Source: Micromonospora chersina (lineage in GTDB: Bacteria; Actinomycetota; Actinomycetes; Mycobacteriales; Micromonosporaceae). Taken from it: a stretch of DNA of 64,000 bases. The notes beneath the pieces were generated by a model. The model was not told where the DNA came from, did no database searches, and saw only the letters and a program-made list of their open reading frames with translations. The DNA is taken from the NCBI RefSeq assembly GCF_900091475.1, contig NZ_FMIB01000002.1, positions 5,270,001-5,334,000 of the forward strand. The letters run 5' to 3'. Position numbers and translations under genes: made by a program. Shown here piece after piece: positions 8,002 through 15,460 of this stretch; the first letter of the stretch is position 1, and the number at the start of each line of letters is the position of its first letter.

Positions 8002-9267
8002 ATGCGCACCGTCCTGCGCCGCCCCGACTTCCGTCTGCTCTTCGTCGCGCTGCTGGCCAGCATGGCGGCCGAGTCGATCCTGCTGCTGGCCCTGGCCGTC
8101 TGGGTCAAGGACCTGACCGGGTCGGACGGCATGGCCGGGGCCACCATCTTCGCCGTCATCGCGCCGATGGCGCTCGCGCCGCTGGTCGGCTGGGTGGTCG
8201 ACCGCTGCCGCCGCCGGCCCTTCTTCGTGGCCGCCAACCTCGGCACGGCCGTGCTGCTCTGCCCGCTCTTCGCGGTCCACGACCGCGCCGACGTCTGGGT
8301 GATCTACGTGGTGGCGGGGCTCTACGGGCTGTCGTACATCACGCTGAGCGCGGTGCTCAGCGGGCTGATCCGGCACCTGGTGCCGAGCGAGCTGCTGGCC
8401 GACGCCAACGGGGTGCTCCAGACCGTCCGGCAGGGACTGCGGCTGGTCGGCCCGCTGGCCGGAGCCGGGCTCTACGCCGCGGTCGGCGGCTGGCTGCTGG
8501 TCGCCCTGGCCATGACCGGCTTCCTCACCGCCGCGGCGGTGGTCGGCCTGCTCCGGGTCACCGAGACCACGCCGGCCCGGTCCGCGCGCCGCTGGCCGGC
8601 CGGGCTGGGCGCCGGGCTGCGGCACCTGGCCGGCGACCCCGCGCTGCGCCGGGCCCTGCTCGGGTACGGGCTGGGCTCGCTCATGATGGGCTTCACCGAG
8701 TCGCTGATCTTCGCGTACGTCGACCTGGGGCTGGGCCGGGACGCCGCGTTCGTCGGCGTGCTCGTCACGGTGCAGGGGGTCGGCGGGCTGGTCGGCGGGC
8801 TCTTCTCGGCGGCGGTGGTGCGCCGGGCCGGTGAGGTGGGCGCGCTCGCCGCCGGGGTGAGCTTCTTCGGACCGGCCGCGCTGGCGCTCGCGTACCCCCG
8901 GCTCTGGCTCGGTGTGGTGGCGCTGCTGCTGGCCGGGGTCTCCCTGCCGCTGACCATGGTCGGGTTGAACACGCTGATCCAGCGGCGGACGCCGCCGGGG
9001 CTGCTGGGCCGGGTCGCCGCCGCCGCGGAGGCGGTGGTGAGCGGCCCGCAGGCGGTCTCCATCGGCGCCGGCGCGCTGCTCGTGGGTGTCTTCGACTACC
9101 GCCTGCTCTTCGCCCTGGTCGGGGTGACCACCACGGCCGCCGGCCTGTACCTCTGGGGCGGCCGGCGGCTCACGACGCCCCGGCCCGTCCTGGTCCACGT
9201 CCCGGTCCCGCGCCGCCCGCTCGACCGCGAGGTGCTCGCCGCGCCCCGCCGTCGCCGGGCGCCGTGA
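8002..9267 (+). CDS. MFS transporter
   Basis: A major facilitator of 421 residues in the plasma membrane with about 10-12 hydrophobic helices. The helix 2-3 loop reads GWVVDRCRRRP, matching the MFS motif GXXXDRXGRR. The overall pattern resembles drug- or macrolide-efflux (MefA-like) transporters, with a short basic C-terminus (RRPLDREV ... RRRRAP). The start ATG has a GGAGGG ribosome site six bases upstream. It is divergent from the XRE regulator. The substrate cannot be told from sequence. Confidence 0.88.
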   Translation: MRTVLRRPDFRLLFVALLASMAAESILLLALAVWVKDLTGSDGMAGATIFAVIAPMALAPLVGWVVDRCRRRPFFVAANLGTAVLLCPLFAVHDRADVWVIYVVAGLYGLSYITLSAVLSGLIRHLVPSELLADANGVLQTVRQGLRLVGPLAGAGLYAAVGGWLLVALAMTGFLTAAAVVGLLRVTETTPARSARRWPAGLGAGLRHLAGDPALRRALLGYGLGSLMMGFTESLIFAYVDLGLGRDAAFVGVLVTVQGVGGLVGGLFSAAVVRRAGEVGALAAGVSFFGPAALALAYPRLWLGVVALLLAGVSLPLTMVGLNTLIQRRTPPGLLGRVAAAAEAVVSGPQAVSIGAGALLVGVFDYRLLFALVGVTTTAAGLYLWGGRRLTTPRPVLVHVPVPRRPLDREVLAAPRRRRAP

Positions 9268-9270
9268 GAC

Positions 9271-9312
9271 GCGACGAGCGGCCGACCCCGGTTCGGGGTG
9301 GCCGCTCGTCGC
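9271..9312. terminator. Bidirectional terminator hairpin between the MFS and mycoredoxin genes
   Basis: GCGACGAGCGGCC (9271-9283) pairs with 9300-9312, with a nested ACCCC/GGGGT stem inside. It sits between the convergent MFS and mycoredoxin genes and could serve both. Confidence 0.75.
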
Positions 9313-9325
9313 AGGTGCGGGTGGG

Positions 9326-9568
9326 TCAGCCGGGAAGGCTGGCCAGGTGCTGCTTGACCTGGGTGATCGAGGGGTTGGTCAGGGCGCTTCCGTCATCGAA
9401 CCGCAGCGTCGGGACGGTCTGGTTGCCGCCGTTGACGCTCATCACGAACTCCGCGGCCTTCGTGTCCTGCTCGATGTCGACCACCTCGTACGCGATGCCC
9501 TCCCGGTCGAGCTGCGACTTCAGCCGGTGGCAGTAGCCGCACCACGGGGTGGAATACATCGTCAACAT
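9326..9568 (-). CDS. Mycoredoxin (glutaredoxin-like, CGYC active site)
   Basis: An 80-residue thioredoxin-fold protein with active site TPWCGYCHRLK near the N-terminus and the cis-Pro/anchor region NGGNQTVPTLRF. This closely follows mycobacterial mycoredoxin-1, which removes mycothiol from S-mycothiolated proteins. I chose the ATG at 9568 because GGAGG lies eight bases upstream; an in-frame TTG 15 bases earlier overlaps that ribosome site. A SigR-type promoter (GGAAT-N19-GTT) lies about 60 bases upstream, matching the known oxidative-stress control of this gene in Streptomyces. It is divergent from uvrD2. Confidence 0.92.
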   Translation of the reverse strand: MLTMYSTPWCGYCHRLKSQLDREGIAYEVVDIEQDTKAAEFVMSVNGGNQTVPTLRFDDGSALTNPSITQVKQHLASLPG

Positions 9569-9627
9569 GGTCAGGTCCTCCAAGGGGTGACTCGCGCCCG
9601 GTCCGATCAGGCCAGGCTAACCGCTGC

Positions 9628-9654
9628 AACATCGCCGGAGGCTGGAATGATTCC
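9628..9654 (-). promoter_or_regulatory. SigR-type promoter of the mycoredoxin gene
   Basis: On the minus strand GGAAT (9654-9650) and GTT (9630-9628) are separated by exactly 19 bases, the SigR/SigH consensus. Transcription would start near 9621, about 50 bases before the mycoredoxin ATG. Confidence 0.75.
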
Positions 9655-9659
9655 TGGCT

Positions 9660-11813
9660 GTGGTGGTTCACTCAGCGGCGGAACGGGTGCTGGCCGGCCT
9701 CGACCCGGAGCAGCGGTCCGCGGTGACCGCCCCGGCCGGCCCGGTCTGCATCCTGGCCGGCGCCGGGACCGGCAAGACCCGGGCGGTGACCTCCCGGATC
9801 GCCCACCGTGCGCTCACCGGCGACATCTCCGCCCGGCACGTGCTGGCGGTCACCTTCACGGCCCGGGCCGCCGCCGAGATGCGAAGCCGTCTCGCCGTCC
9901 TCGGGGTGCCAGGTGTGCAGGCGCGCACCTTCCACGCGGCCGCGCTGCGCCAGGTCCGCTACTTCGCGCCCCGGCTGCTGGAGGGGCGGGCCATGCCCGA
10001 ACTGCTGGACAGCAAGGTGCGGGTGGTCACCCTGGCCGCCGCCAAGGTGGGCCTGCGCGCCGACCGGGCCGCCGCCCGCGACCTGGCCGGCGAGATCGAG
10101 TGGGCCAAGTCGTCGCTCGTCGAGCCCGGTGAGTACGTGGTGGCCGCGGCCAAGGCGCTGCGCGAGACCCCGTACGAGCCGGCCAAGGTCGCCGACGTCT
10201 TCGCCGCGTACGAGCGGCTCAAACGCGGCAACGGGGTGATCGACTTCGAGGACATGCTGCGCGCCGCGGTCTGGGGCATCGAGGAGCACGCCGACGTCGC
10301 CGAGCAGGTCCGCGGGCAGTACCGGCACCTCGTGGTCGACGAGTACCAGGACGTCAACCCGCTCCAGCAGCGGCTGCTGGACGCCTGGCTCGGCGGCCGG
10401 GACGACCTCACCGTGGTGGGCGACGCCAGCCAGACCATCTACTCGTTCACCGGGGCGACGTCCTCCTACCTGGTCGACTTCCCGCGCCGCTACCGGGGCG
10501 CCACGGTGGTCCGGCTGGTCCGCGACTACCGCTCCACCCCGCAGGTGGTCGGGCTGGCCAACGCGGTGATCTCCCAGGCCCGGGGCGCCGAGGCGCGGCT
10601 CCGGCTGGAACTGCACGGCCAGCGCCCGCCCGGCCCGGAACCCGATCTGCGGATCTTCACCGACGAGCCGGCCGAGGCCAACGCGGTCGCCGCCCGCTGC
10701 CGGGCGCTGATCGACGGCGGCACCCCGGCGCGGGAGATCGCGGTGCTGTTCCGGACCAACGCGCAGTCCGAGGCGTACGAGAAGGCGCTCACCGAGGCCG
10801 CGGTCCCGTACGTGGTGCAGGGGGCGGAGCGCTTCTTCGAGCGCCCCGAGGTGCGCCAGGCGATGATCGCGCTGCGCGCCGCCACCCGGTCCATCCCGGG
10901 GGAGACCCCGCTGCCGGCCGCCGTCGTGGAGGGGCTCGCCGCGGTCGGCTGGGCGCCCGACGCGCCCCCGGCCGGCGGGGCCGCGCGCGAGCGCTGGGAG
11001 GCGCTCGCCGCCCTGGTCCAGCTCGCCGAGGAGTACGCGGCGACGCCCGAGGTGGTGCCGATCGGCGAGGCCGTCGCGATCGAGCGCCCGGTCACCCTGG
11101 GCGACTTCAACGAGGAACTGGCCCGGCGGGCCGCCCAGCAGCACGTGCCCACGGTGGAGGGGGTGACGCTGGCCTCACTGCACTCGGCCAAGGGTCTGGA
11201 GTGGGACGCCGTCTTCCTCGTCGGCCTGGCCGAGGGCACCCTGCCCACCACGTACGCGAAGACCCCCGAGCAGGTCGAGGAGGAACGCCGCCTGCTCTAC
11301 GTCGGGATCACGCGGGCGCGGGAGTGGCTCTGGCTGTCGTACGCGACGGCCCGTTCGCCCGGCGGCCGGGCCCGGCGGCCGTCCCGGTTCCTGCCGCAGC
11401 TGGACCGCTCCGGCGGCGGCGAGCGGGCCGGCGCGGGCGCGGCCCGGCGCACCGAGCGGCGGCGCGCCCAGGTGGTGTCCTGCCGGATCTGCGGCGCCAC
11501 CCTGCTCGCCGGGGCGGATCGGAAGCTGGGCCGCTGCCCGACCTGTCCGTCCGATCTGGACGAGGAGCTGTACGAGCGGCTGCACGAGTGGCGGCAGCGG
11601 GTGGCCGGCGCGCAGAAGGTGCCGGCGTACGTGGTCTTCACCGACGCCACGCTCACCGCGCTGGCCGAGCGGAAGCCCGGACGCACCGAGGAACTCATCG
11701 CGATCGCCGGGATCGGGCCCCGCAAACTGGGCCTTTACGGCGATACGGTGCTGGCCCTGGTGGCCGGTGCGGGGGTGGACGATGTCTGCCCGCAGAAAAG
11801 TTTCGAAATCTAG
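9660..11813 (+). CDS. uvrD2: ATP-dependent DNA helicase UvrD2
   Basis: A superfamily 1A helicase of 717 residues. Motif I is GAGTGKT (about residue 33), motif II DEYQDVNP (about 225), motif III GDASQTIYSF, and motifs V-VI include SLHSAKGLEWD and LLYVGITRAREWLW (about 545). A Cys4 cluster (CRICG ... CPTC, about residues 607-625) is followed by a C-terminal HRDC domain with AIAGIGPRKL. This helicase-Cys4-HRDC layout is the mycobacterial UvrD2 architecture. The start is one of two tandem GTGs (9660 or 9663) with no good ribosome site. The gene is divergent from mycoredoxin. Confidence 0.95.
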   Translation: MVVHSAAERVLAGLDPEQRSAVTAPAGPVCILAGAGTGKTRAVTSRIAHRALTGDISARHVLAVTFTARAAAEMRSRLAVLGVPGVQARTFHAAALRQVRYFAPRLLEGRAMPELLDSKVRVVTLAAAKVGLRADRAAARDLAGEIEWAKSSLVEPGEYVVAAAKALRETPYEPAKVADVFAAYERLKRGNGVIDFEDMLRAAVWGIEEHADVAEQVRGQYRHLVVDEYQDVNPLQQRLLDAWLGGRDDLTVVGDASQTIYSFTGATSSYLVDFPRRYRGATVVRLVRDYRSTPQVVGLANAVISQARGAEARLRLELHGQRPPGPEPDLRIFTDEPAEANAVAARCRALIDGGTPAREIAVLFRTNAQSEAYEKALTEAAVPYVVQGAERFFERPEVRQAMIALRAATRSIPGETPLPAAVVEGLAAVGWAPDAPPAGGAARERWEALAALVQLAEEYAATPEVVPIGEAVAIERPVTLGDFNEELARRAAQQHVPTVEGVTLASLHSAKGLEWDAVFLVGLAEGTLPTTYAKTPEQVEEERRLLYVGITRAREWLWLSYATARSPGGRARRPSRFLPQLDRSGGGERAGAGAARRTERRRAQVVSCRICGATLLAGADRKLGRCPTCPSDLDEELYERLHEWRQRVAGAQKVPAYVVFTDATLTALAERKPGRTEELIAIAGIGPRKLGLYGDTVLALVAGAGVDDVCPQKSFEI

Positions 11814-11824
11814 CCGTAAATCGT

Positions 11825-11854
11825 TTGCCCTCGCCCCGAGGCGAGGAATAGCCT
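11825..11854 (+). promoter_or_regulatory. whiB7 promoter
   Basis: TTGCCC (11825-11830) and TAGCCT (11849-11854) are 18 bases apart. An AT-rich patch (CCGTAAATCG) touches the -35, the feature recognised by WhiB7 at its own promoter in mycobacteria. The predicted start near 11861 gives a leader of about 470 bases. Confidence 0.6.
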
Positions 11855-11944
11855 CAGGACACACCTCGCGAGCGGCGCCATTCTGGCTGCTCACGGGGGA
11901 TGAGTCCATGGTCGGCACGAGGAACGTTGAGGGAGGTGGCACCC

Positions 11945-12199
11945 GTGGAGATCTTCACCTATGAGCGTCCGGCGGCGATGCCAGCTGCCTGCGCTCCGCT
12001 GTCGTCCGTCCGGGTGGCCCTTGCCGCTCGACCGTCGGCTCCGCAGGTGCACCAGGTCCAGGTTCAGGCCGAGCTGAACCTGACCGTCGCGCCGCTGGCG
12101 GAGATCGAGGGGACCAGTGGCTTCACGGGCATGGGCATCGGTGACGTCAAGAAGCGCACGGATGTCCGCGGCGTTCCACCTCGAGGTAGACCGGTCTGA
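11945..12199 (+). CDS. Upstream ORF in the whiB7 leader (84 codons)
   Basis: A GTG at 11945 has GGGAGG eight bases upstream and opens an 84-codon frame (VEIFTYERPAAMPAACAPLS ...) ending in TGA at 12199. The frame reads across the left strand of a predicted antiterminator and stops 22 bases before the terminator stem. That is where a ribosome would decide between the two structures. WhiB7/WblC genes are known to have regulatory upstream ORFs. Codon usage is less G/C-biased than in normal genes, as expected when the RNA structure matters. The exact start is uncertain; the peptide itself is unlikely to have another role. Confidence 0.6.
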   Translation: MEIFTYERPAAMPAACAPLSSVRVALAARPSAPQVHQVQVQAELNLTVAPLAEIEGTSGFTGMGIGDVKKRTDVRGVPPRGRPV

Positions 12200-12231
12200 T
12201 CCAGACCACCGGCTCACCTCGAGGCCGCGGA
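12165..12231 (+). promoter_or_regulatory. Antiterminator of the whiB7 attenuator
   Basis: TCCGCGG (12165-12171) and CCTCGAGG (12179-12186) can pair with CCTCGAGGCCGCGGA (12217-12231), about 15 base pairs with a small bulge. This uses up the left arm of the terminator, so the two structures exclude each other. Confidence 0.65.
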
Positions 12232-12266
12232 ACCCGCACACCGGGATCCGCGGCCTCAGTTTTTTT
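12221..12266 (+). terminator. whiB7 leader attenuator (intrinsic terminator)
   Basis: GAGGCCGCGGA (12221-12231) pairs with TCCGCGGCCTC (12247-12257), with an inner CCCG/CGGG stem, followed by seven Ts (12260-12266). It lies 65 bases before the whiB7 ATG and is the only strong hairpin plus T-run I found in the window. Confidence 0.85.
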
Positions 12267-12330
12267 GCACCGCCGTAGTGCCGAAGTAATGCGATCCACG
12301 AGATCGAAGTGAGAGAGAGGTGACCGGGAG

Positions 12331-12696
12331 ATGAGTCTGGCGTTGGCCCCGCTCGACGTGAGTGTCGACGTGGAGGCGAACCTGCCCTGCCGGAAGTTCG
12401 ACCCCGACCTGTGGTTCTCCGACTCGCCTGCCGAGCTCGAGCTGGCCAAGTCGCTCTGCGGGGACTGCCCGCTGCGCGTCGAGTGCCTCGCCGGCGCGGT
12501 GGAGCGGGCCGAGCCCTGGGGCGTCTGGGGCGGCGAGATCTTCGAGCGTGGCGCGGTCGTCCCGCGCAAGCGGCCCCGTGGCCGTCCGCGCAAGGAGGAC
12601 CTCGCCCGTGACGCCCAGCTTCGGGTCGAGGCGGAGGCGCGACTGGCGGCCAGTGGGCTGTCCGAGTCGCGTAGCTCCGTCCGGCTGGCAGCCTGA
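12331..12696 (+). CDS. whiB7: WhiB7 (WblC) redox-responsive transcriptional activator
   Basis: This 121-residue iron-sulfur regulator switches on intrinsic antibiotic-resistance genes in actinobacteria. The four cluster ligands are C20, C43, C46 and C52 (CGDCPLRVEC). The WhiB turn is the WhiB7-specific EPWGVWGGE (about residues 61-69), and an AT-hook RGRPRK follows near residue 83. The AT-hook plus the EPW form of the turn separate WhiB7 from other WhiB proteins. It sits behind a 470-base leader with upstream ORF and attenuator. Upstream is uvrD2, as in mycobacteria. Confidence 0.96.
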   Translation: MSLALAPLDVSVDVEANLPCRKFDPDLWFSDSPAELELAKSLCGDCPLRVECLAGAVERAEPWGVWGGEIFERGAVVPRKRPRGRPRKEDLARDAQLRVEAEARLAASGLSESRSSVRLAA

Positions 12697-12755
12697 CACA
12701 ACCCCGTCCGACGTCCCCGCCGGTGACACTCACCGGCCGCGAGAAAGCCGAAACC

Positions 12756-12929
12756 ATGCTGCACCTGCCGAATGGAACCGAGATGCAACTACTCCACGAA
12801 GCGTTGTCCCGGGCGCGAATGCGCCGGCCTCAGGCCGGCACCACCACGCGCACTGAGGCAGCCCGTTCCGCCCGTACCGTCGCCATGCGTAGCCGCAGCC
12901 AGTCGGCTCGCGACCTGGGCGTTCTCTAG
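12756..12929 (+). CDS. Small conserved-looking protein downstream of whiB7 (57 aa)
   Basis: I do not recognise a family name. The product begins MLHLPNGTEMQLLHEALSRA and ends RSQSARDLGVL; it is basic and arginine-rich with one predicted helix at the N-terminus. A GTG at 12723 could extend it by 11 residues. No clear ribosome site precedes either start, so translation might be coupled to whiB7, which ends 60-26 bases upstream. A strong hairpin follows directly, which supports a transcription unit ending here. The regular helix pattern and the terminator position make a real gene more likely than not. Confidence 0.5.
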   Translation: MLHLPNGTEMQLLHEALSRARMRRPQAGTTTRTEAARSARTVAMRSRSQSARDLGVL

Positions 12930-12942
12930 TACCCACACCACG

Positions 12943-12976
12943 GAAGGGGCGGCGACCGGATGGTCGCCGCCCCTTC
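12943..12976. terminator. Bidirectional terminator after the whiB7 unit
   Basis: A perfect 15-bp stem (GAAGGGGCGGCGACC at 12943-12957 with 12962-12976) and a GGAT loop lie between the whiB7 unit and the convergent ABC1 kinase gene. Confidence 0.8.
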
Positions 12977-12990
12977 GGCGTGTGCGTCGG

Positions 12991-14337
12991 TCAGCTCACC
13001 GGGGCGAAACCGGGCAGCCAGCGCTCCAGGATGGCCCGGTAGGGCGCCTTGGCCTCCAACTGGCAGAGCACCCCGATCGAGCCCAGCGTCACCCGGTGGA
13101 TCATCAGGTACGACGGCGGCAGGTTGAGCTGCCGGCTGAGCTGGTAGGTGGGGGAGCGCGGGCTGGCCAGCCGGGCCGCCTCGCCGCGCAGCCAGGCCCG
13201 GGTGAACCGGAACTCGTCCGCGGAGATCGGCTCCAGCATCGGCCGGAGGAAGTCCAGCACCCCCTCGGCGTCGATCGGCTCGGTGGGGCTCACGAAGCCC
13301 TCGTCCCGCAGCCCGGCCACCACGGCGTCCGCGTCGCCGCGCAACGCCAGGGCGGCGATCCGGCCGATCGGCTCCGGGGTGCCCTCCGGCATCCGGGCCA
13401 CCGCGCCGAAGTCGATCACGCCGAGCCGGCCGTCCGGTAGCAGCCGGAAGTTGCCCGGGTGCGGGTCGGCGTGCAGCAGCCCGGCCCGCATGGGCGCGGA
13501 GAGGTGCAACTCGGCCATCAGCCGCCCGGCCTCGTCACGCTGCTCCTCGGTGCCCTCCCGGATGATCTGCGACAGCGGGGTGCCCTCGACCCACTCGGTG
13601 ATCAGCACCCGGGGCGCGGCGTCGAGCACCTCCGGGATGTAGATGTCCGGATCGTCCGCGTACGCGGCGGCGAACGCGCGCTGCGACTCGGCCTCCAGCT
13701 CGTAGTCCAGTTCCTCGGTGATCCGTTCGCGCAGCTCCACCAGGAGCGGCTTCACGTCCAGCCCGGGCTGGATCGCGCGGAACATGCCGCCCAGCCGGGA
13801 GAGCTGCTTCAGGTCGGCGAGCAGGGCGTCCCCGGCGCCCGGGTACTGGATCTTCACGGCCACGTCCCGGTGCCGCGGGCCGCCGTTCGGCCCGTACCCC
13901 GGATCACGCCAGACCGCGCGGTGCACCTGGCCGATGCTGGCCGCGGCGGCCGGGGTGTCGTTGAACTCCACGAACCGGTCCCGCCAGTCCGGCCCGAGCT
14001 GCTCGGCCAGCACCTTGTGCACGGTCGCCGCGGGCAGCGGCGGGGCGGCCTCCTGGAGCTTGGTGAGCGCCTGCCGGTAGGGGGCGGCGATCTCCTCCGG
14101 AAGCGCCGCCTCGAAGACCGACAGGGCCTGACCGAACTTCATGGCCCCGCCCTTGAGCTGCCCGAGCACGCTGAACAGCTGCTCGGCGGTGCGCTGCTGG
14201 ATCTCGGCGGAGATGACGTCGGACGCGAGCCCGGTGACGCGCTTGCCCATGCCGAGGACGGTCCGACCGGCGAAACCGAGCGGTAGAGCGGCGAGCTTGG
14301 CGGTCCGGGACACGGCCCGGCGCGGGATGTCGGTCAC
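12991..14337 (-). CDS. ABC1/AarF (UbiB) family atypical kinase
   Basis: A 448-residue protein-kinase-like protein. It has the signature KGGAMKFGQALS (about residue 60), the AAASIGQVH nucleotide loop, a QYPG lysine segment (VAVKIQYPG) and the metal-binding HADPHPGNF and VIDFGA. Family members act in quinone-lipid metabolism or other small-molecule phosphorylation. The GTG at 14337 is preceded by AACAAT at a leaderless distance. It lies beside whiB7 in mycobacteria too (Rv3197, where the family has been linked to macrolide tolerance, as I recall). It may be co-transcribed with the ThiF-like gene 10 bases upstream. Confidence 0.93.
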   Translation of the reverse strand: MTDIPRRAVSRTAKLAALPLGFAGRTVLGMGKRVTGLASDVISAEIQQRTAEQLFSVLGQLKGGAMKFGQALSVFEAALPEEIAAPYRQALTKLQEAAPPLPAATVHKVLAEQLGPDWRDRFVEFNDTPAAAASIGQVHRAVWRDPGYGPNGGPRHRDVAVKIQYPGAGDALLADLKQLSRLGGMFRAIQPGLDVKPLLVELRERITEELDYELEAESQRAFAAAYADDPDIYIPEVLDAAPRVLITEWVEGTPLSQIIREGTEEQRDEAGRLMAELHLSAPMRAGLLHADPHPGNFRLLPDGRLGVIDFGAVARMPEGTPEPIGRIAALALRGDADAVVAGLRDEGFVSPTEPIDAEGVLDFLRPMLEPISADEFRFTRAWLRGEAARLASPRSPTYQLSRQLNLPPSYLMIHRVTLGSIGVLCQLEAKAPYRAILERWLPGFAPVS

Positions 14338-14347
14338 CCGGTCATTG

Positions 14348-15460
14348 TTACCGACTCGAGGGGCCCACTGCTGCTGTGCGGCCCGGAGCGGGCGCGCCCG
14401 ACCGGATCGGGCGACGCCCGGAGCACTCGCAGGAGGGGTGCGGCGGCCACCGGCGGTGCCGGAAGCGGCCCGGCCCCGGAATCTCCACGGCGCAGCCGAG
14501 GGTCTCCGGGGCGCCCCCGTCGAGCTGCGTCAACACCTCGGCCGCCGCGTAGGCAGTCGCCGCCAGCCGGGTGGTGGCCGCACAGGCCCGGTCGCCGTCG
14601 TCGGCCGCGAGCTGGGCGGCGAGCGCCGGCCACTCCGGGTCGCGGTCCGTCCGGTGCAGGTCGAGGCAGCGCAGGCACGGGCCCACCGGCGGACGGACCA
14701 GCGGGCCGATCACCGGCACGCCGCCGCGCAGGTCGACGAGGAGATGAGGCTGGCGGCGCCGCGCGTACCCGGCGGCGAGCAGGGCCGCCGGGCGGTCCGC
14801 GCCGAGCTGGACCACGAGGTCGGCCCGGTCCGGCCGGAGCGGGCCGGTCGCCGTGCCGGGCGCGCACCGGGCCAGCGCCGCGCGGACCGCGGGCGCCAGC
14901 GGGCGGCCCAGCTCCGCGCCGGTGAGGCCGGTCCCGACCAGGTCACCCGGGCGGACCGGCCCGGCCAGCTCGGGTACGACGTGCCCGACGCCGGCCTGCG
15001 CCAGCGCGACGGCCACCGCCGCGCCGAGCCGGCCGGCCCCGGTGACCAGCACGCGGGCTGCCCGGCGGCGGCGCAGCAGCCGGGCCGGCGTGCCGGGCAG
15101 GTCGGTCGCGGTCAGGGCCAGGGCGTCGGCCTCGCCGGCGAGCCGGGCCCGGACCGGCCCGGTGAGGTCGCGGGGGAGCAGGCTCTGCGCGGGTACGACG
15201 AGACCGGCGGCCCGGAGCGTGTCGAGCAGCACCCGGGCCTCGGCCGGAGGCACCCGCGCGGCGGTGGCCGCCGTGAGCACGGCCCGCTCGCTCCGGGAGC
15301 CGTCCAGCAGGTCGAGCAGGCGCGTGGCGCCCGGGCTGGTCACCTCGAGCAGCACGGCCCGGCCGGGCTCGACCCCGAGCTGGAGGGTGTGGCGGTCCCG
15401 CCAGAGCCGGGTCAGGCCGGGCAGCAGCGTCGGACGGGCGAGGGGCATGGGGTCGCTCAC
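14348..15460 (-). CDS. ThiF/cyclodehydratase-like protein of the Rv3196 type
   Basis: A protein of about 370 residues. The N-terminal 150 residues resemble the peptide-recognition part of TOMM cyclodehydratase C proteins (TRLWRDRHTLQLG ... RLLDLLDGSRSE). The C-terminal part has a Rossmann loop RVLVTGAGRLG and a CLRCLD zinc-type motif, as in ThiF/E1-like enzymes. The adenylation residues are poorly conserved, so catalysis is doubtful. The start may be GTG 15460 (VSDPMPLARP) or ATG 15448. It precedes the ABC1 kinase gene in the same orientation. Function unknown; the neighbourhood is conserved in mycobacteria. Confidence 0.75.
   Translation of the reverse strand: MSDPMPLARPTLLPGLTRLWRDRHTLQLGVEPGRAVLLEVTSPGATRLLDLLDGSRSERAVLTAATAARVPPAEARVLLDTLRAAGLVVPAQSLLPRDLTGPVRARLAGEADALALTATDLPGTPARLLRRRRAARVLVTGAGRLGAAVAVALAQAGVGHVVPELAGPVRPGDLVGTGLTGAELGRPLAPAVRAALARCAPGTATGPLRPDRADLVVQLGADRPAALLAAGYARRRQPHLLVDLRGGVPVIGPLVRPPVGPCLRCLDLHRTDRDPEWPALAAQLAADDGDRACAATTRLAATAYAAAEVLTQLDGGAPETLGCAVEIPGPGRFRHRRWPPHPSCECSGRRPIRSGAPAPGRTAAVGPSSR

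Follow-up and report, generated by a model that had tools for sequence, protein, structure and literature searches.

A predicted ribosome-controlled transcription attenuator in the whiB7 leader of Micromonospora chersina

Organization of the locus

The window analyzed here is a stretch of 64,000 nucleotides of Micromonospora chersina DNA (contig NZ_FMIB01000002.1, positions 5,270,001 to 5,334,000), and all positions refer to its first letter. A gene for a 121-residue WhiB protein is separated from a UvrD/HRDC helicase gene, identified with Pfam, by a leader interval at 11813-12331 (Table 1). The WhiB domain was assigned with Pfam PF02467 (51.9 bits, cut-off 23.6); the protein also has four cysteines and carries GVWGG and RGRP sequences, which we take to be the WhiB7 motifs. 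Close matches (E ≤1e-37) were found in 146 of 150 genomes of the Micromonosporaceae, the remaining four giving only ~1e-9 to 1e-11. The agreement with the M. tulbaghiae protein is 98%, and the protein is near-identical among the named Micromonospora relatives. The Pfam domain, the close family matches and the helicase neighbor together identify the gene as a WhiB7 orthologue. In one family genome (G088), given as 100% complete and in one contig, whiB7 is possibly missing because the best WhiB7 match has an E of only 8e-11. On the far side of whiB7, Pfam places an ABC1 atypical kinase gene (PF03109, 12991-14337, minus strand) that is convergent with it. The elements of the original prediction, which are a promoter, an upstream ORF (uORF), a terminator and an antiterminator region, were all found at their places when the sequence was read.

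Table 1. Features of the whiB7 leader and its flanking genes in the window
Feature	Position	Strand	Description
UvrD/HRDC helicase gene	9660-11813		flanks the leader interval, with whiB7 on the other side
WhiB7/WblC-type promoter (putative)	11817-11854	+	TAAATC 11817-11822, 2 nt, -35 TTGCCC 11825-11830, 18-nt spacer, -10 TAGCCT 11849-11854
Shine-Dalgarno	11932-11937	+	GGAGGT, 7 nt ahead of the uORF start
uORF	11945-12199	+	GTG start at 11945, TGA 12197-12199, 84 aa
Antiterminator left strand	12165-12187	+	P1 UCCGCGG 12165-12171, P2 CCUCGAGGU 12179-12187; inside the uORF end
Antiterminator right strand	12216-12231	+	12221-12231 common with the terminator 5' arm
P1	12165-12171 with 12225-12231		7 bp
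P2	12179-12187 with 12216-12224		9 bp, CCUCGAGGU with ACCUCGAGG
P3 (apical stem)	12191-12212	+	GGUCU 12193-12197 / AGACC 12203-12207, CC 12191-12192 / GG 12211-12212; overlaps the uORF stop codon
Intrinsic terminator (predicted)	12221-12266	+	stem 12221-12257 (11 bp, 1x1 A/A mismatch, 4 bp), T7 12260-12266
whiB7	12331-12696	+	121 aa; WhiB domain, four cysteines, GVWGG and RGRP motifs

Leader collection and alignments

WhiB7 relatives were drawn from 150 family genomes, 158 class genomes of which 137 had a match, and 80 named loci kept out of 145 relatives. Loci were fetched for 110 of the 150 family genomes, the 40 omitted ones including most of the most divergent, and for 108 of the 135 matching class genomes from outside the family. 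The 298 loci contain 289 distinct leaders. The family alignment A1 holds 57 of 113 distinct segments after thinning; alignment A2 combines 17 of these 57 with 126 of the 129 thinned leaders from outside the family. Alignment A4, made by aligning class leaders to model R1, retains 58 of 134 matches at a stricter cut-off, and the R1 search itself, over 100 loci, omits nearly all mycobacterial and most pseudonocardial leaders, in which the shape of the antiterminator differs. The terminator model R2 was run against 61 family genomes and 98 class genomes, the latter including two family genomes (G000 and G003). Counts at the uORF end cover 56 of the 57 thinned family leaders and 127 of the 129 others, with the stop codon 14-34 nt before the hairpin core. 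The genus set of 22 leaders consists of all 16 genus genomes of the family search and six named Micromonospora loci.

A WhiB7-type promoter

The AT-rich motif just before the -35 element and the TANNNT form of the -10 element suggest, by sequence match, a WhiB7-responsive promoter, with the AT-rich motif lying 2 nt from the -35 in the window as opposed to 3 nt in that promoter type. TTGC at the -35 and TAGCCT at the -10 are present in 22 of 22 genus leaders, and AAA precedes the -35 in 20 of them. With a looser pattern, 69 of 121 family leaders and 131 of 161 others have such a promoter, compared to 0.25 and 0.75 expected from mononucleotide shuffles, so that the promoter proposed originally is both present and conserved in relatives. 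It is noted that alignment places the AT-rich motif one base nearer the -35 in the window (11817-11830) and in ten of the other 21 genus leaders than in the rest. A generic scan, with rules limited to loops of 3-8 nt and E. coli-like hexamers, returned no promoters and no terminators at the leader.

In Streptomyces, transcription starts 7-8 bp downstream of the -10 element, and both the promoter motif and the start spacing reported there match the window (PMC7157823). By this rule transcription is expected to start near 11861, giving a leader of 470 nt, which is the length that had been proposed. The strong conservation of the promoter might suggest that control is exerted mainly at this level, through autoregulation by WhiB7, with attenuation playing a minor part here. 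We consider this extremely improbable, as it leaves the conserved hairpin, antiterminator and uORF unexplained.

The upstream ORF

Reading of the sequence confirmed the proposed 84-codon uORF and its good ribosome site, and the Shine-Dalgarno sequence GGAGGTGG is invariant in all 22 genus leaders. The putative uORF ends just before the predicted terminator. The distance from its stop codon to the hairpin core has a median of 25 nt in the family (middle 80%, 23-28 nt) and 24 nt in the other leaders (19-28 nt), with extremes of 60 and 14 nt. No match to the uORF peptide was found in NCBIfam or Pfam. Reading of the 84-residue translation also found no run of regulatory codons of the kind used in trp/ilv-type attenuators, with no more than two identical residues in succession.

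The original prediction considered the uORF to be unusually long, and this has to be withdrawn. Lengths range from 64 to 198 residues in 122 family leaders (median 93.5) and from 23 to 172 in 161 others (median 78), based on a Shine-Dalgarno start rule that may choose starts longer than the real ones; the uORFs of the 13 named mycobacterial leaders are shorter, at 42-71 residues. The body of the uORF is under weak constraint at the protein level (pN/pS 0.59, codon positions 2 and 3 being equally variable), and the case for its translation therefore comes from the Shine-Dalgarno sequence, the open frame and the position of the stop codon.

The terminator hairpin and its distribution

The T-tailed terminator of the original prediction was confirmed in both its stem and its tract of seven T, and the computed energy of the fold is -31.2 kcal/mol. 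In sequence, this putative terminator is situated between the uORF and the gene. Its core hairpin is present in 284 of the 289 distinct leaders (122 of 122 from the Micromonosporaceae and 162 of 167 others), whereas dinucleotide shuffles give 3.8 of 289 on average. This pattern had been loosened after a stricter first count of 274 of 289; the core GGCC[GA]CGG occurs in 274 leaders, compared to 0.15 in shuffles. The core reads GGCCGCGG in 121 of the 122 family leaders and GGCCACGG in 34 of the 162 others. Five leaders (L063, L093, L099, L240 and L253) have no core hairpin, and some of these may belong to paralogues or may have lost the attenuator. In 42 of the 122 family leaders and 66 of the 162 others, there is no run of more than three T within 12 nt of the core stem; many copies of the terminator therefore have a poor U tract.

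R2 (E ≤0.01) matched upstream of whiB7 in 58 of the 61 family genomes and 82 of the 98 class genomes. R2 was built from a leader pool that covers most of the searched genomes, such that only 8 of the 58 and 11 of the 82 matches come from genomes with unfetched leaders. In every one of these genomes (58/58 and 82/82) the best match is on the same strand as the whiB7 match and no more than 600 nt upstream of it. The three family genomes with no R2 match are among the four lacking a close WhiB7 match. In the class sample, R2 found nothing in 6 of the 88 genomes with a whiB7 match, nor in the 10 genomes with no whiB7 match (E ≤1e-12). The six whiB7-bearing genomes are G174, G189, G193, G211, G226 and G240, of which five are ~1.3-1.4 Mb genomes of one family. 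An Rfam search of window positions 9000-15000 found nothing up to E = 1; in three relatives it gave a single sub-threshold match, distant from the leader (2822-2874 of L213).

Eight R2 matches in the searched genomes lie away from whiB7. The same attenuator at other genes was considered for these and rejected, since all eight are at the ends of long ORFs (from mechanical ORF calls) and have no antiterminator; R1 scores there are at most 15.2 bits, compared to 121.7 bits for the window. L299-L306 are apparently ordinary gene-end terminators in actinomycetes, with GGCCGCGG-like stems. Such stems at the ends of other long ORFs raise the question of whether the hairpin in the leader is itself an ordinary terminator, serving the helicase gene or a short RNA, with the antiterminator a chance product of the palindromic, GC-rich words CCUCGAGG and CCGCGG. 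The arrangement GGCCGCGG N8-24 CCGCGGCC indeed occurs at 10 places in the genome of the organism, which is fewer than the 26 of a backward-read control. The narrow distance between stop codon and hairpin, as well as the best match being upstream of whiB7 in every genome with a match, argue against such an origin; the pairing of the antiterminator, described in the following, also bears on it.

The antiterminator

As proposed, an antiterminator spans 12165-12231 and uses the left arm of the terminator. Its two stems P1 and P2 add up to 16 bp and not the 15 bp given originally, and the apical stem P3 had not been listed. The uORF was also said to cover the left antiterminator strand. It does end at 12199, with the stop codon beginning 10 nt past the left arm; judging from the size of a ribosome footprint, a ribosome terminating there would still extend into P2 and P3.

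The antiterminator fold was compared with shuffles of the upstream strand. The median z was -3.1 for the 57 thinned Micromonosporaceae leaders, 47 of them being below -2, and -2.1 for the 129 thinned other leaders, with 65 below -2. In a duplex-energy test, no more than 1 of 100 shuffles was equally good in 97 of 122 family leaders; outside the family this test is weak (23 of 162, median z -0.95). Within the limits of the duplex tests and of the covariation given below, the sequence of the uORF end is thus predicted to pair with the 5' arm of the terminator. The mere pairing of the core with upstream sequence was rejected as evidence, as it is as common by chance (48/57 and 127/129 native leaders versus 85-86% in shuffles), and the ease of such pairing speaks for a chance antiterminator beside an ordinary terminator. 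P1 and the P2 end are loose in the family, with pairs 20-101, 22-99 and 42-85 broken in 27, 22 and 38 of 57 leaders, respectively. The thinned family leaders gave no sign of a fourth strand protecting the left arm when translation is absent (the median unpaired probability of this arm was 0.41 for native leaders versus 0.38 after shuffling of the upstream sequence; median z 0.4).

Covariation of the competing helices

For the terminator, the covariation score over 143 class leaders is 0.174, compared to 0.093 in shuffles (0 of 500 as high) and at most 0.092 in slid versions, and 12 of 15 pairs show changes on both sides. Within the family the score is 0.054 versus 0.043, with 3 of 15 pairs changed on both sides. 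The antiterminator scores 0.054 in the family versus 0.047 in shuffles (0 of 500) and at most 0.034 in slid versions; four of its pairs are changed on both sides, compared to 1.4 in shuffles, but some slid versions reach six, and 7 of the 23 pairs are invariant. In the MAFFT alignment of the class the antiterminator signal is modest. The score is 0.171 versus 0.149 (0 of 500; slid versions ≤0.127), but the 15 pairs with two-sided changes are no more than in shuffles (15.4) or slid versions (≤15). The signal is strong for the 58 class leaders fitted to the model, at 0.274 versus 0.127 (0 of 500; slid versions ≤0.069) and with two-sided changes in 16 of 23 pairs, in an alignment that leans to structure by construction and omits nearly all mycobacterial leaders.

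The strand common to both helices allows a three-way comparison. Where core position 5 is A (mostly GGCCACGG), 24 of 27 TCCGN sites in the uORF end read TCCGT; where it is G, TCCGT is found at 31 of 94 sites outside the family and at 1 of 56 inside it. Leaders with no TCCGN site number 9 of 35 (A), 42 of 126 (G, outside the family) and 72 of 122 (G, family). Fisher's test of 24/27 versus 31/94 gives 3e-7, a value that counts sites and not leaders, ignores descent and is dominated by one clade. In leader L176, a C-G pair of the terminator is changed to U-A, with a matching A in the uORF arm.

The comparison among relatives that had been suggested for compensatory changes has therefore found both pairings conserved and both helices covarying, with the limits noted for the family and MAFFT counts. 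P2 and P3 covary across the class, and the antiterminator fold energies are beyond those of shuffles, which makes it very unlikely that the leader holds an ordinary terminator with a chance antiterminator.

Folding energies and the proposed switch

Folding of the nascent RNA up to position 12234, with a ribosome placed at different codons, gave a computed energy of -39 kcal/mol or lower for ribosome positions up to about codon 69. The energy is -39.2 kcal/mol at codon 69, -16 kcal/mol or weaker from codon 76 and -2.7 kcal/mol at the stop (codon 85). With the ribosome at codons 60-69, all eight core bases are paired upstream in the minimum-energy fold of the nascent RNA, whereas for the tested stalls at codons 1-57 only 4-6 of the eight are engaged.

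Once the 3' arm of the terminator is included, the full-length RNA of the window has the terminator fold at 33 of 34 ribosome positions tested. With no ribosome present, the complete RNA likewise has the terminator at equilibrium in 52 of the 57 family leaders and 113 of the 128 class leaders. Equilibrium folding was therefore rejected as proof of a switch, since the terminator wins; the RNA folding that had been suggested as a check shows the terminator fold, but a switch is invisible in simple full-length folding. With the terminator favored in the complete RNA at equilibrium, a decision for antitermination would have to be kinetic, the antiterminator forming first and persisting while the polymerase passes.

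We propose the following sequence of events. The RNA would start near 11861 from the WhiB7-responsive promoter, and a ribosome presumably translates the uORF behind the RNA polymerase. A ribosome that reaches the stop codon would cover P2 and P3 while 12216-12231 is being synthesized; the 5' arm would then be free for the terminator to form, and transcription would end near 12266. Ribosomes that are inhibitor-bound or starved may instead halt before about codon 69 and leave the left arm free. In that case the antiterminator, with a computed energy near -39 kcal/mol in the nascent RNA, could form before the 3' arm of the terminator exists, and the polymerase would probably read through into whiB7, with WhiB7 then boosting its own promoter. 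The ~69 codons ahead of the arm form a wide target for any stall, which would suit a general sensor of translation stress.

Conservation of the uORF end

The last ten residues of the uORF are identical in 22 of 22 genus leaders. Its last 12 codons have no single-base nonsynonymous difference in the genus, with a two-base change from Val to Ala in one leader. In addition, the last three residues include a proline in 50 of the 56 family leaders and in 89 of the 127 others, compared to 23% and 19% of windows from the uORF body. These observations could be expected of an arrest peptide, erm- or tnaC-like, in which a specific nascent sequence and not any stall would sense a drug or an amino acid. 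The conserved end is, however, the left strand of the antiterminator, which could alone conserve these residues because the two coincide. The uORF body is poorly conserved and widely variable in length, and a ribosome stalled right at the uORF end would cover the left arm, favoring termination. The published inducers are also diverse, including amino-acid starvation. We thus regard a specific arrest peptide as highly improbable and keep to sensing of ribosome stalls in general.

Selection on the end of the uORF as a peptide is also conceivable, though unlikely. A proline-containing C-terminus (RGRPV, PPV, DPA or RSP) may slow peptide release, so that the ribosome would stay parked on P2 and P3 until the polymerase has passed the terminator. 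C-terminal proline can slow release, with effects that vary among species (PMC7246954); in PMC4974804, proline appears in a metabolic context. At family codon -7, Pro is found in 53 of 56 leaders (CCA 30, CCG 17, CCT 5, CCC 1), and at class codon -3 in 52 of 127 (CCA 23, CCG 20, CCC 6, CCT 3). Some Pro codons vary in their third base with the first two fixed, in stretches that are unpaired in the antiterminator model; the CC bases may also be kept for an alternative RNA pairing. In 11 of the 13 named mycobacterial leaders there is no proline in the last three residues.

Comparison with known attenuators

Leaders of this type are reported to be typical of whiB7 genes in actinobacteria, with the antiterminator formed from overlapping uORF and terminator sequences (PMC10727445), and the original prediction was right on their precedent: the mechanism has been published for both mycobacteria and Streptomyces (PMC10727445, PMC11550727). 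The same switch is described in PMC11550727, PMC9618640 and PMC13393426. For mycobacteria, the whiB7 uORF and terminator were reported and attenuation proposed (Dinan 2014, PMC4128351), while stalling inside the whiB7 uORF is noted in PMC12121999 as not yet tested. Among titles and beginnings of abstracts on whiB7 in Micromonospora or wblC in Salinispora, none concerned the whiB7 leader.

The closest counterpart is the wblC leader of Streptomyces coelicolor (Lee, Lee and Roe 2022, Mol Microbiol 117:179, via PMC10727445 and PMC11550727), which is described as having the same uORF, terminator and uORF-using antiterminator ahead of the orthologous gene. Streptomyces-like leaders (e.g. L236 and L261) share the GGCCGCGG core with the window, but their uORF ends in WRDPA or WSDPA instead of RGVPPRGRPV, and the P2 and P3 sequences differ. 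The whiB7 leader of Mycobacterium bovis and M. marinum likewise has a uORF ~10 nt past a Shine-Dalgarno sequence, a terminator and proposed attenuation (PMC4128351). In the named mycobacterial leaders, besides the shorter uORFs, GGCCACGG replaces GGCCGCGG, with matching changes in the 3' arm of the terminator and, in most, in the uORF arm. A similar ribosome-controlled choice between terminator and antiterminator is found in the ilvB1 leader of M. tuberculosis, which differs in sensing branched-chain amino acids through regulatory codons and in serving a different gene (PMC13236596).

Conserved and covarying competing helices, the spacing of stop codon and hairpin, the conserved Shine-Dalgarno sequence and promoter, and the published leaders all support the central claim of a ribosome-controlled whiB7 attenuator. 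We are highly confident that the leader in the window is the whiB7/wblC transcription attenuator of Actinomycetes, as it occurs in Micromonospora, and from its sequence whiB7, a resistance regulator gene of this soil bacterium, would very likely be switched on when ribosomes are blocked. The leader is a well-preserved copy of a known control device, and the element is not of a new kind. As the mechanism is already published, the gain is in breadth and detail.

By this comparison, the whiB7 attenuator reaches the Micromonosporaceae, a family rich in antibiotic producers, with a geometry nearly as in the other class leaders examined. A covariance model has been gained for an RNA element that has no Rfam match where searched. 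Detail is added by the three-stem antiterminator, the stop codon within its apical stem and the three-way covariation. The proline-rich uORF end is the only twist that may be new; if it does act as a release brake, it would provide a built-in, default-off hold on whiB7, although the same bases are also constrained as RNA.
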